From: Streptomyces canus
Lineage (GTDB): Bacteria; Actinomycetota; Actinomycetes; Streptomycetales; Streptomycetaceae
Length of the DNA stretch: 64,000 nt
Assembly (NCBI RefSeq): GCF_041435015.1
Contig: NZ_CP107989.1
Span: forward strand, 9,362,001 to 9,426,000
Direction of reading: 5' to 3'
Shown: one piece after another, positions 52,038-57,552 of the stretch
Layout: each line of letters starts with the position of its first letter
Position numbering within the stretch: the stretch's first letter is position 1
The notes under the pieces: generated by a model
Seen by the model: only the letters and a program-made list of their open reading frames with translations
Databases searched by the model: none
Told to the model about the DNA's origin: nothing
Program-made: the position numbers and the translations under genes

Positions 52038-52916
52038 TCACACGCGGTCGGCAGCGATCAGCAGGTACTGGAAACTGCCGTTCCGGTAGGCGGTGAGAAA
52101 GGTGTCCTCGATTCCCGTGACCAGATGGTCGGCCTCCTTGCGCAGCTCCCAGTAGGGCAGGGCCGCCTCGGTGAGGTCCTCCACGTGCACCGGAACCAGC
52201 CGGTTGCGGGCCATGGCGCGGAAGTACGCCGAGCGGGGATGGATGTCGCAGATGTAGTGGGCGTTGATGAGCGAGACCTCGCGGGATGCCTGCCCGTAGG
52301 TGTCGTTGTAGCAGCCTGTGATCACCACATAGCGTCCGCCCCGGCGCAGCAGCCGCGCGTGCTCCGCGAACAGCAGGTCCAGCTCGACGTACATGGTCGA
52401 CTCGTTGTTCCAGGAGGCCGCGTAGGCCCCGGAGGGCAGCCCGGTGTCGAGCATGTTGCGGTGGTGGTAGCGCACCAGGTCGTCGATGCCCCGCTTGCGG
52501 GCCTGGGCGTTGGCGAACTCCGCCTGCTTCTCGGAGATGGTGACGCCGTCTGCGTGGCAGCCGTGGTGCAGATGCGCCACGACACTGCCGCCGCCGCGCC
52601 CGCACCCCGCGTCGAAGACACGGTCCTCGGGACGGAGCGGGCCGAGCCGGGAGGCGAGGAGTTCGGCCTGGGCGTGTTCGAGGCGGTGCAGTTCGGCGGT
52701 GATCCGCTCCCGCCGCCGTACCGGATCGGGTTCCTCGAGGACGGAGCGGTCGGCCTCTCCGATGCCGTAGTGGTGGTGGTAGAGGTCGTCGAGCCTTCCG
52801 AGTTCGAGGTTGACCGGGTTCTCCTCGGCGTTCCAGTAGTCCGCGACTCGGGTCTGGTACGTCGACTGGGTCGGCACCGGAATGGTCCGGGCGCCGGCGT
52901 GGGGGGCGGTGGTCAA
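52038..52916 (-). CDS. Geranyl diphosphate 2-C-methyltransferase
   Basis: This 292-residue SAM-dependent enzyme makes 2-methyl-geranyl diphosphate from GPP. It shows YHHHYGIGEADR, SAM motif I VFDAGCGRGGGSVVAHLHHG, ASWNNESTMYVELDLLFAEH, YVVITGCYNDTYGQASREVS and the conserved tail GSFQYLLIAADRV. Length equals that of the Streptomyces coelicolor homologue. The start is TTG 52916 behind GAGGAG; an ATG at 52955 would extend it by 13. It is the third gene of the 2-methylisoborneol operon. Confidence 0.93.
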   Translation of the reverse strand: MTTAPHAGARTIPVPTQSTYQTRVADYWNAEENPVNLELGRLDDLYHHHYGIGEADRSVLEEPDPVRRRERITAELHRLEHAQAELLASRLGPLRPEDRVFDAGCGRGGGSVVAHLHHGCHADGVTISEKQAEFANAQARKRGIDDLVRYHHRNMLDTGLPSGAYAASWNNESTMYVELDLLFAEHARLLRRGGRYVVITGCYNDTYGQASREVSLINAHYICDIHPRSAYFRAMARNRLVPVHVEDLTEAALPYWELRKEADHLVTGIEDTFLTAYRNGSFQYLLIAADRV

Positions 52917-52966
52917 CGGTGACTCCTCGTGCTGGTGCGTGTGACGTCCTGTCATGCGAGCGTGCT

Positions 52967-54004
52967 TTACCAGTAGTTGGGCAGGTGATAGCGGTGGCTG
53001 TTGGTGGCGTGCCACTCGTGGTTGCCGGCCACCCAGTCGGACAGGCTCCGGGTGTAGCGCTCCACGAGCGGTGAGGTGGCGGAGAGCAGGGCCGACTCCT
53101 CGTCGAAGGCCTCCATGATCCGGTTGTGGATCTCGACGGCCTTCAGATAAGCGGCCTTGAGCCCGCACCGCTCGTTCGCGGCGATGACCTGGGGCAGGTT
53201 GAGATGGGTGGGGTCGGCCAGTTCCTTGGTGAAGGAGTACAGGTCGTTGACGAGGGTGGTGGCGTTGCCGGCGAGTGCGGTGAGGCGCTGGATCTCGGGG
53301 CGGGCGTACACCACCTCGGGCAGTTCCCAGCCGTCGACCGCGTCGACGATCGACAGACAGGGACGGAAGTTGTTGAACTGCCGCATCACCAGGTACTCCC
53401 ATACCCGGGGCATGTACCGGGTCTCGCCCCAGGCGGCCTCGCCCAGATAGCCGAGGTGGAGCCGGGCGATGTCGTGCAGGAACCGGTCGGTCTGACTGGG
53501 AGTGGCGATGACGGCGTAGTCCTTGAGGGCCCAGTGGTACGACCTGAGCGGCCCGTCGGCCTGCACTCCGCTCAGCCACTGCTCCTGGAGGTCGGGCGGG
53601 CCGTGGTACGGGTCGAGTGCCGCCTGGGCCAGGACCAGCCGTCCGCCGAGGCCGCTGCGCGAACCGCCCTTGTCCTCGTCCTCCTCGCAGTAGCAGTTGT
53701 CGACGATGTTCTCGGCGAGAAGCAGCTTCCCGGCCACGGTGAGGCGTTCCGAATCGGCCGCCTCCGGGTGTTGGAGCACCACGGCCCGGCCGAACTGGAA
53801 CCCCGAGAAGTCCCCGTTCCATGTCTCGGGGAACAGATCCAGGCGCCTGGCCCAGGCTTCCAGCCTGCGGTCGATCTCCGCGGCCTTCACCGGGTCGGCG
53901 GGGGCGACCTTCCGGTACCTCAGACCGGGGATCGCCCCACCGGGCCGGCCGGCGCGCAGGGTGCTCGCGATGTCGGGCGGCCCCGGCAAGGACGGGGTGT
54001 TCAT
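52967..54004 (-). CDS. 2-methylisoborneol synthase (terpene cyclase)
   Basis: The 345-residue class I terpene synthase cyclises 2-methyl-GPP to 2-methylisoborneol. The acidic motif appears as ENIVDNCYCEEDEDKGGSRS, where the usual DDCYCED reads DNCYCEED. The NSE triad is in VNDLYSFTKELAD. The tail is WVAGNHEWHATNSHRYHLPN, ending YW, as in known MIB synthases. The known Streptomyces coelicolor enzyme is about 440 residues with a long disordered Pro-rich N terminus. Here only about 27 residues (including TPSLPGPPDIAS) precede the fold. The start lies 5 bp after the encapsulin stop. Confidence 0.92.
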   Translation of the reverse strand: MNTPSLPGPPDIASTLRAGRPGGAIPGLRYRKVAPADPVKAAEIDRRLEAWARRLDLFPETWNGDFSGFQFGRAVVLQHPEAADSERLTVAGKLLLAENIVDNCYCEEDEDKGGSRSGLGGRLVLAQAALDPYHGPPDLQEQWLSGVQADGPLRSYHWALKDYAVIATPSQTDRFLHDIARLHLGYLGEAAWGETRYMPRVWEYLVMRQFNNFRPCLSIVDAVDGWELPEVVYARPEIQRLTALAGNATTLVNDLYSFTKELADPTHLNLPQVIAANERCGLKAAYLKAVEIHNRIMEAFDEESALLSATSPLVERYTRSLSDWVAGNHEWHATNSHRYHLPNYW

Positions 54005-54009
54005 CGCGG

Positions 54010-55446
54010 TCACTCGGCCGTCCGGCCGATCTGAGCGTTCTCCAGGATCCCGACCGCGTCGGGCACGAGGATGGCCATCGAGTAGTAGGCGGTGACGAGG
54101 TAGCGGATGATCGAGTTGGTGTCGATGCCCATGAACCGTACGTTCAGGCCGGGTTGGTACTCCTCGGGGATGCCGGTCTGGTAGAGCCCGATGGCCCCCT
54201 GGTCGCCCTCCCCGGTGCGCAGCGCGATGATGCTGCTGGTGTGCTGCGGGCTGACCGGGATCTTGTTGCAGGGAAAGATCGGCACCCCCCGCCAGGCGGG
54301 GATCTCGTGCCCCTCGACGCTCGCCGTGCCCGGCACCAGACCGCGCCGGTTGCACTGCCGGAAGAACGCCGCGATGGCCTTCGGATGGGCGAGGAACAGC
54401 TTGGTCTTGCGGCGCATGGCGAGCAGTTCGTCCATGTCGTCGGGGGTCGGCGGCCCGGTGAAGGTGCTGACGCGCTGGCCGTGGTCGGCGTTGTGCAGCA
54501 GCCCGAACTCCCGGTTGTTGACCAGCTCCCACTCCTGGCGCTCGCGGATCTCCTCGATGGTGAGCCGCAGTTGCTGCTCGGTCTGGTCCATCGGGTTGTT
54601 GTAGAGGTCGGCGACCCGGGTGTGGACCCGCAGCACGGTCTGGGTGAGGGACAACTCGTACTCGCGCGGGGCGAGTTCGTAGTCGACATAGCCGCCGTTG
54701 ATTGTCGGCTCCCCGACGTGGCCCGCCTGGACGGGGACGTCGGCCTCGCCCTTGCGGTTCATCGGCAGGCTCTGCCGCCGCGCGTAGGCCTCCAGATGGG
54801 CCGCGAGGGACGGCACCCGCTCCGTGAACTCGGTGACCACCGACCACGGGAGGACCAGCACCACGCCCGCGGTCTCGGCCCGGACCGAGCTCAGCCACAG
54901 CGGATCGGGCTGCCCTATGGCCTCGTCGCCCATCTGGGCGCCGTCGGTGACGACACCGACGATCTCCTCCTCGCCGTACTTGCCCTCGGTGAAGCGGGTG
55001 AAGCGGCCGTGCACGACGAGGTAGGCCTCGGTGACCGGCTGACCGGCCTCGACCAGGACCTGGCCGGCGCGGATCTCCCGGACCCGGAAGCGGGTCGCGA
55101 GCTCTTTGAGGACCTCGGTGTCGGAGTAGCCGCGCAGAGTGGGGAGTTCGGTGAGTGTCTGGGGGATGACCCGGATGTCGTCGGCGCCGTTCTGCTCGAA
55201 CTGCACCCGGCCCCGGCCCACCCGGAGCTGGAGGCGCCGGTTGACCCGGTAGGTGCCGCCCTTCACGTCCATCCACGGCAGCATGCGCAGCAGCCAGCGG
55301 GAGCTGATGGCCTGCATCTGGGGTTCGGACTTGGTGGTGGTGGCGAGTTGCCGGGCGGCCGTGGTGCTGAGGCTGGTGAGCCGGTCTTCGGACGGGGGGT
55401 CGGGTTCGTCGACGGCGGGGCCGGTGGCGCTGTCCGGTGTGGACAC
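54010..55446 (-). CDS. Family 2B encapsulin shell protein (EshA-like)
   Basis: The 478-residue protein has the HK97-type shell fold split by a cyclic-nucleotide-binding domain (about residues 110-225: [35 protein letters not shown]). Shell-forming parts include [20 protein letters not shown] at the N terminus and [20 protein letters not shown], then [20 protein letters not shown] near the C terminus. This is the EshA group, now known as family 2B encapsulins. Terpene cyclases are their typical cargo, and a MIB synthase gene follows at once. A ligand such as cAMP may gate assembly, which is inference. Confidence 0.9.
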
Positions 55447-55604: not shown

Positions 55605-56618
55605 TCAGGACAGGTCGTTCACCAGTACGGCCGCCCCGTCGAAGCGTCCCGCCTTCAGGTCCCGCAGCGCCCGGTCGGCCTCCGACAGCGGATACGTGTG
55701 CGTGGTCGCGCGCACGCCGTGCCGGGCGGCCAGGGTCAGGAACTCCCGGCCGTCCTCACGGGTGTTGGAGGTGACGCTGCGCACCTCCTTCTCGTAGAAC
55801 AGCTCGCTCTCGTAGTGCAGCGCGGGCACGTCGCTGAGGTGGATCCCGGCGATCGCCAGCACCCCGCCCCGGTCGAGAGCCCGTAGTGCCAGGGGGACCA
55901 GGTCACCCACCGGCGCGAAGAGGATCGCGCTGTCCAGCGGCTCGGGAGGCATCTCGTAGGCGTCCCGCGCCGAAGCGGCTCCCAGCTTCAGCGCCAGCGT
56001 CCGAGCGGCCGCACCACGGGTCAGGACGTGCACGGTGGCGCCCTCGGCCAGGGCCACCTGTGCGCACAGATGGGCGCTGCCCCCGAAGCCGTAGAGCCCG
56101 AGGCGCCCGCCCGGTGGCAGCGAGGCCCGCCGCAGCGCCCGGTGGCCGATGATCCCCGCGCACAGCAGGGGAGCGAGCGACACGTCGTCGAGCCCGCCGG
56201 GCAGCCGGTAGGCGAAAGCGGCCGGTACGACCGTGTACTCCGCGTAGCCGCCGTCGGCGTCCCAGCCCGTGTACCGGGAGGCCGGGCACAGGTTCTCGGA
56301 CCCGCGCACGCAGTACGGGCACGTCCCGTCCGTCCGCCGCAGCCAGGCCACCCCCACCCGCTGACCGACCTCGAAGCCGCGCACCGCCGCTCCGAGACCG
56401 GCCACCACGCCGACGACCTCGTGCCCCGGCGTCACCCCCGGCCGGTGCACCGGCAGATCCCCCTCGGTCACGTGCAGGTCGGTGCGGCACACCCCGCACG
56501 CGCGCACGTGCACGAGAAGTTCGTCGTCACCCGGCTCCGGGACCGGCCGTGCGACGAACCGGAGGCCGCCTTCCTCGACCGGTCCCGGAGCCGCCACCGA
56601 CCACGCCCGCATCGTCAT
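55605..56618 (-). CDS. Zinc-dependent alcohol dehydrogenase
   Basis: The 337-residue medium-chain dehydrogenase has the catalytic zinc Cys in [18 protein letters not shown] and [12 protein letters not shown]. The structural zinc cysteines are in [20 protein letters not shown], and the cofactor block is [20 protein letters not shown]. The start at MTMRAWSVA is typical. It is divergent from the VOC protein at 56752. The substrate alcohol cannot be told. Confidence 0.9.
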
Positions 56619-56751
56619 GGGAGTTCCCGCCCTCGCAGAGTGTCCTTTCTGTCCAGTTTGCAGCGGAATCGTCCGTTCGACGCGCGGTCGGGCGCACCCG
56701 TGACTAGCGTGTGGAGTCGGACCGACCACCGATTCGGGAAAGGCCGCGATC

Positions 56752-57552
56752 ATGGCCGTACAACCTGAGGGAACCCCCTGCTGGGCCGATGCGATGTTCA
56801 GCGATGTCGAGGGGGCCAAGAGCTTCTACGGCGACGTCCTGGGCTGGACCTTCGGCGAGGCGTCGTCGGAGTTCGGCAACTACACGCAGGCCTACGCGGA
56901 CGGGAAGGCCGTCGCCGCCGTCGTGCCGCCGATGCCCGGTCAGGAGGGCCATTCGCAGTGGTGCCTGTACCTCGCGTCGTCGGATGCCTCCGCCACCGCC
57001 GGCAAGATCCGTGACAACGGCGGCGAACTGCTCATGGAGCCGATGCAGGTCGGCGACTTCGGCACGATGTGCCTGGCCCGCGACCCGAGCGGCGTCGTCT
57101 TCGGCGTGTGGCAGGCAGGCACCCACGAGGGCTTCGAGGCGCCGCCCGAGCAGACGGGGGCGTACTGCTGGGCCGAGGTCTACACCCGCGAACCCGAGAA
57201 GTCCGACGCGTTCTTCCCGGCCGTCTTCGGCTACAGCGCCCGGCAGATGCAGGACGACGCCATCGACTTCCGCATGTTCAACCTCGGCGACCACACCGTC
57301 CTCGGTCGCATGAAGATGACGGACGACTTCCCGCCCGAGGTGCCGCCGTACATCAACGTCTACTTCAGCGTCGACAGCTGCGACGACGCCGTCGCCCGCG
57401 CCACCAAGCTCGGCGGCGTCCTGCGCTTCGGGCCCATGGACTCCCCGTTCGGCCGGTTCGCCGCCCTCAGCGATCCGCAGGGTGCGAGCTTCTCAGTGAT
57501 CGACGTGACGACGACCCAGGGCGACATGCCCCAGATCTCCGACGTGCCCTAG
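56752..57552 (+). CDS. VOC family protein with two glyoxalase-like modules
   Basis: The 266-residue protein has two vicinal-oxygen-chelate domains. The first begins [20 protein letters not shown] and closes [20 protein letters not shown]. The second begins [20 protein letters not shown] and closes [15 protein letters not shown]. This tandem type occurs in Streptomyces hydroxylase-like and drug-binding proteins. No metal-binding set is obvious. The start ATG 56752 is the clearest choice. Its stop overlaps the converging methyltransferase relic. Confidence 0.85.

Follow-up and report, generated by a model that had tools for sequence, protein, structure and literature searches.

A family 2B encapsulin operon of Streptomyces canus with a short-armed terpene cyclase and a candidate PGPP docking motif

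How might a terpene cyclase be brought into an encapsulin shell without the long N-terminal arm of its relatives? The question is raised by an operon in the window, by which we mean the whole stretch of 64,000 nucleotides analysed (Streptomyces canus, contig NZ_CP107989.1, positions 9,362,001 to 9,426,000). In S. griseus, 2-MIB synthase reportedly loads through its N-terminal arm, according to a preprint by Andreas and Giessen. Cargo recognition in family 2B is still poorly defined. The experimental study of S. griseus is cited as a preprint in PMC12407261; another paper (Andreas and Giessen 2021, PMC8346489) describes 2-MIBS-like cyclases with 100-120 mostly disordered N-terminal residues, carrying the consensus GPTGLGT in most cases. 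The window has the same arrangement as the family 2B systems treated there, with a cNMP-fold shell, a 2-MIBS-like cyclase and a C-methyltransferase in one operon, but those systems have the long GPTGLGT arm and the window's cyclase has a short PGPP arm without GPTGLGT. The long disordered arm is thus missing here, and the "most" of that paper implies that it is not strictly required.

Our reading, which we hold at slightly under an even chance, is that of an intact methylated-monoterpenoid module in which a short PGPP arm would dock the cyclase inside the family 2B shell, with encapsulation, docking and product all deduced from comparison. The methyltransferase would form 2-methyl-GPP, and the cyclase, housed within the shell, would close it, most likely to 2-methylisoborneol (2-MIB). 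In the sub-clade to which the operon belongs, a short PGPP-centred arm has replaced the long disordered GPTGLGT arm, and the shell differs in ancestry from that of the sister clade. The most likely task of this arm, whose PGPP lies about 17-18 residues ahead of the catalytic domain, is docking of the enzyme to the inside of the shell. The features concerned are the following.

54010..55446, minus strand: family 2B encapsulin shell protein, 478 aa, GTG start (NCBIfam encap_f2b, 713.9 bits against a cut-off of 400)
54820..55080, minus strand: cNMP-binding-fold insertion of the shell, residues 123-209 (PF00027, 49 bits)
52967..54004, minus strand: short-armed 2-MIB-synthase-type terpene cyclase, 345 aa (f2_encap_cargo2, NF041167, 407.6 bits against a cut-off of 400)
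53975..53986, minus strand: PGPP, conserved core of the short arm and candidate docking element, cyclase residues 7-10
53675..53701, minus strand: first acidic motif of the cyclase, DNCYCEEDE, read from the sequence
53222..53248, minus strand: second metal-binding motif of the cyclase, NDLYSFTKE, read from the sequence
52038..52955, minus strand: geranyl diphosphate C-methyltransferase (GPPMT_Stmyces, 452.1 bits against a cut-off of 400)

The operon of shell, cyclase and methyltransferase described by an earlier, sequence-only reading of this DNA was confirmed, since all three genes run in the same direction and pass the NCBI curated cut-offs, the cyclase narrowly and the methyltransferase at the equivalog level. 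The shell combines an SrpI-like domain (PF19307, 436.6 bits) with the insertion that matches Pfam cNMP_binding, the mark of family 2B, and the protein matches solved shells such as PDB 9bhu (E 1.1e-175). As for the tight spacing claimed by that reading, the 5-bp gap between shell and cyclase holds when counted from the cyclase ATG (54004), while the 50 bp before the methyltransferase is obtained only from a TTG at 52916 and becomes 11 bp from the ATG at 52955. The cyclase arm may be three residues longer than from its ATG, because a GTG at 54013, overlapping the shell stop by four bases, is in frame and a database relative 97% identical to the cyclase (P0005) has three extra residues at its N-terminal end. 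A missing frame 5′ of the cyclase, as the trace of a lost arm, was ruled out: the shell gene ends directly upstream and leaves no space for a lost extension. Both class I metal-binding motifs are present in the cyclase, the second, NDLYSFTKE, being of the NSE type; D102, the first aspartate of the acidic motif, and N253, D254, L255, Y256, S257 and E261 are invariant in a 36-row alignment (A1). A promoter and terminator scan and PADLOC returned nothing useful.

To place the short arm, 170 loci were compared, comprising 82 short-clade loci (S), 61 canonical loci (C) and 27 others outside the counts. The S set, retrieved through peptides other than PGPP, consists of the best 80 of 144 loci plus two more, one of them a repeat (81 distinct); the C set holds the best-scoring loci of a genome survey plus two further loci, and two C loci that were checked had 3v1x/3v1v as their best match. 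With the upstream-most start chosen, 68 of the 82 S cyclases have at most 363 residues. Among the best 120 of 1206 database relatives, 112 are 340-360 residues long, and identity to the window's cyclase is 76-97%. The survey covered 394 family genomes with at most five candidates scored per genome: 234 have a cyclase relative at E 1e-60, and the short type, defined by at least 72% identity, was counted by hand in 74, a number that takes in the genome of the window itself and one broken copy. Another 20 S-type loci, from other genera, made up a second set, with ten linked to a shell and ten unlinked; three unlinked and one linked locus repeat earlier loci, giving 11 distinct unlinked members overall. 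Judged by these comparisons, shortness of the arm characterises a whole clade, for which 4zq8 is a solved relative, and is not the truncation of one gene that the sequence-only reading had taken for an oddity.

Residues 5-345 of the cyclase align to PDB 4zq8 with 623 bits, against 372 for the 2-MIB synthase 3v1v. The 4zq8 entry, titled "Isoprenoid Synthase" and from what we take to be S. lydicus, contains DNCYCEEDE and LPGPP, as does the window's cyclase; a literature search found no paper naming 4ZQ8 and likewise no encapsulation or product data. The 2-MIB synthase structures 3v1v and 3v1x, which we assume to be from S. coelicolor, belong to the same family with an aligned NDLYS motif, but differ from the window's cyclase in having DDCYCED and a long arm. 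Short arms are already in print: PMC10520479 gives 2-MIB synthase lengths of about 330 to 580 residues, including a Longispora albida enzyme of 329 aa. It also reports that the domain of the S. coelicolor enzyme from residue 115 alone has 238% of the full-enzyme activity.

The arms of the two types differ in their conserved cores. GPxGLG, the pattern of the published GPTGLGT, was found in 59 of the 61 canonical loci against none of the 82 short-clade loci, and PGPP in 82/82 short-clade loci against 9/61 canonical ones, where it was counted anywhere in the arm. The stretch TPSLPGPPD had been thought to be kept from longer synthases; these counts, with no conserved LPGPP in canonical arms, ruled it out as a canonical-arm remnant. 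The significance attributed to the short arm was partly borne out, as PGPP is constant in the S set while its flanks drift freely, yet it was not inherited from the canonical arm. Across the 82 S loci, the amino-acid entropy of PGPP is 0 and that of its third codon positions 0.89-1.83 bits, its distance to the catalytic domain is 17-18 residues in 79 loci, and the residues ahead of it range from 5 to 138. The motif is nearly but not strictly invariant in the clade, because it was found in 115 of the best 120 of 1206 database relatives and in 16/20 loci of the second set; the other five database relatives have PGAP, PGPH, AGPP, PGPS and an arm starting after the motif. In four of the 82 loci (L034, L041, L056 and L070) PGPP occurs two or three times in the arm when the longest reading frames are taken. 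We also considered PGPP as a remodelled GPTGLGT. Scanning with a canonical/sister profile placed the best window in register in 45/82 short arms, and in the reverse scan the in-register window came first in 0/19 sister arms and 5/59 canonical arms. When the GP dipeptides in 61 arms were compared by their flanks, a score over all flanks singled out the GPxGLG site in 26 cases (20.9 expected), the leucine at −2 by itself in 50, and the flanks without this leucine in 15. In a literature search GPTGLGT matched a single paper, PMC8346489, whose main text does not contain PGPP, and LPGPP together with "terpene" gave a lavender paper as its sole match.

The relationship between the two arms was followed in trees. 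A sister clade, B, comprises 27 database proteins and L088; the arms of its members are long, 19/27 proteins show GPxGLG, and six of the eight proteins without it have annotated starts inside or after the motif. In the cyclase tree, support was 100/99 for S, 99/87 for B and 100/99 for S+B. Three-gene trees were built from 34 loci with all genes (15 S including the window, 2 B, 7 of group O and 10 C), five further selected loci being excluded as their shell match was too short. In these trees the cyclases of S and B form one clade (100/100) and the methyltransferases group weakly (87/75). For the shells, S+B is rejected (AU p 0.00086, a grouping named for test after the low S-B shell identity had been seen), and the S shells join four O loci at 100/100. 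On this phylogenetic evidence, the short-clade shell does not share its ancestry with the sister-clade shell, though the cyclases share theirs. The shell exchange could have occurred on either the S or the B lineage, an ambiguity due to there being only two B shells in the comparison. The cyclases of the four O loci with S-like shells have GPTGLGT or near variants; a new shell alone therefore does not force a new arm.

For the first acidic motif, the sequence-only reading had correctly described DNCYCEED but regarded it as a change from DDCYCED. DN proved to be a common natural state: the motif begins with DS in 57 S loci, DN in 20, DD in four and DT in one. Sister clade B has mostly DDCYCED. 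The deepest S row in the tree, P0152, combines PGPP with DDCYCED, which suggests from its tree position that the arm changed before the acidic motif; reversals within S are possible, because the other DD rows are scattered in the clade.

Regarding the product, 2-MIB is most likely, being favoured by the match to the methyltransferase model and by how seldom the short type shares a genome with the canonical one. The canonical type was found in 1/74 S genomes against 138/320 others (hand count by E-value class; Fisher p 9.8e-15, with no correction for relatedness), which is what two ways of making the same product would lead one to expect. Both observations weigh against a C11 terpenoid other than 2-MIB, with the new shell and arm accompanying a new product. 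We hold this alternative to be less likely but quite possible: canonical cyclases share only 50-56% identity with the window's cyclase, and the short type coexists with sister type B in two of six genomes chosen for short-type loci. These two are the genomes of L082 and L084, with short- and sister-type cyclases (L184/L192 and L185/L193), each sister-type locus having a shell of its own.

The role of PGPP was then considered in relation to shell linkage. Of the S loci, 78/82 have an upstream, same-strand shell gene and 82/82 a methyltransferase. "Not linked" denotes no upstream same-strand shell gene in the stretch examined; L163 is so counted though a shell lies nearby in another orientation, as is L203/L068, where the contig extends no more than about 1.6 kb upstream, and "linked" takes in L116 (shell 1.3 kb away) and L168 (32% match). 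PGPP is kept in all 11 distinct unlinked S members (L061 and ten of the second set), seven of which form one group (91/82). Six of the ten linked second-set loci keep it, three others have PRPP, PGPA and PGPQ, and in the last the motif could not be read. The comparison of linked with unlinked loci, which had been put forward as a check, therefore speaks against a simple tag, and on these counts the retention pattern is the reverse of that predicted for a tag of the cognate shell alone. The canonical GPxGLG behaves in the same way (35/36 linked loci, 24/25 not linked).

Because unlinked members keep PGPP while linked loci alter it, an enzyme-intrinsic role is a serious rival, to which we give a sizeable minority of the probability. 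PGPP would be, for example, an active-site cap, a contact between subunits or an aid to solubility, and docking to the shell would be weak or achieved by something else. Synonymous codon changes inside PGPP among the ten unlinked second-set members and the nearly fixed spacing to the domain agree with such a role, as does the influence of the canonical arm on activity and solubility in PMC10520479. In the same paper, however, the arm of the canonical enzyme lowers activity rather than being needed; since the canonical domain alone is more active and PGPP, by alignment, falls before the domain border (S. coelicolor residue 115), the arm motif need not be catalytic, and the remainder of the short arm drifts freely. 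A cyclase that is not encapsulated, next to a shell with another cargo or role, is improbable in our view. The published candidate tag GPTGLGT is indeed absent from the short clade, and 4/82 S loci are without an adjacent shell; against this, the shell adjoins the cyclase in the 78 loci and none of five other tested neighbours, all named by eye, reaches this constancy (of 82 loci, 39 have a dehydrogenase, 32 an SGNH-type hydrolase and 33 an epoxide-hydrolase-type gene, while two opposite-strand genes of glyoxalase type occur in 57 and 47). Docking through PGPP thus keeps about even odds as the best candidate in the short clade from the sequence comparisons, slightly lowered because altered motifs occur in linked and not in unlinked loci.

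Unlinked members could possibly load in trans onto a shell elsewhere. The other 2B shells in their genomes are only 54-57% identical to the window's shell, and a 2B shell elsewhere was found in 33/33 and 7/7 genomes in two counts. This gives loading in trans no support, because genomes without a cyclase match carry 2B shells too (20/20, the listed 20 of 160).

If docking by PGPP is granted, at least two cargo codes may exist in family 2B terpene shells, one written in long arms with GPTGLGT and one in minimal arms with PGPP, with a switch on the lineage where the cyclase-methyltransferase pair joined a shell of other ancestry; we advance this only tentatively. Were it true, no natural loading tag of family 2 would be shorter than PGPP with its linker of ~17 residues, and so small a tag would be convenient for enclosing other enzymes. 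The clade is a natural experiment on cargo recognition, offering the same enzyme type, another shell lineage, an arm of a few dozen residues and a four-residue core, and its members without an adjacent shell are a built-in control for docking versus enzyme function.

Upstream of the operon, in the same direction, lies an alcohol-dehydrogenase-like gene (55605-56819, minus strand, named by eye), probably a neighbour rather than a part of the operon because a homologue is near 39/82 clade loci. The same genome carries a second family 2B shell, 59% identical (C1:3636827-3638194; L176 7819-9225), with a polyprenyl synthetase gene immediately behind it; the arm of this synthetase contains PLHGPAPRSE-like repeats. 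A general L-x-G-P cargo code derived from this arm was rejected, the pattern being present in 0/15 related synthetase arms; these came from 25 further shell loci, 15 with a polyprenyl synthetase by similarity, and three of the arms have fewer than 20 residues with the chosen starts. In another genome (G237; L183/L089), a short-type operon has shell matches in pieces several kilobases apart and a cyclase match ending at residue 221, and is apparently a decaying locus.
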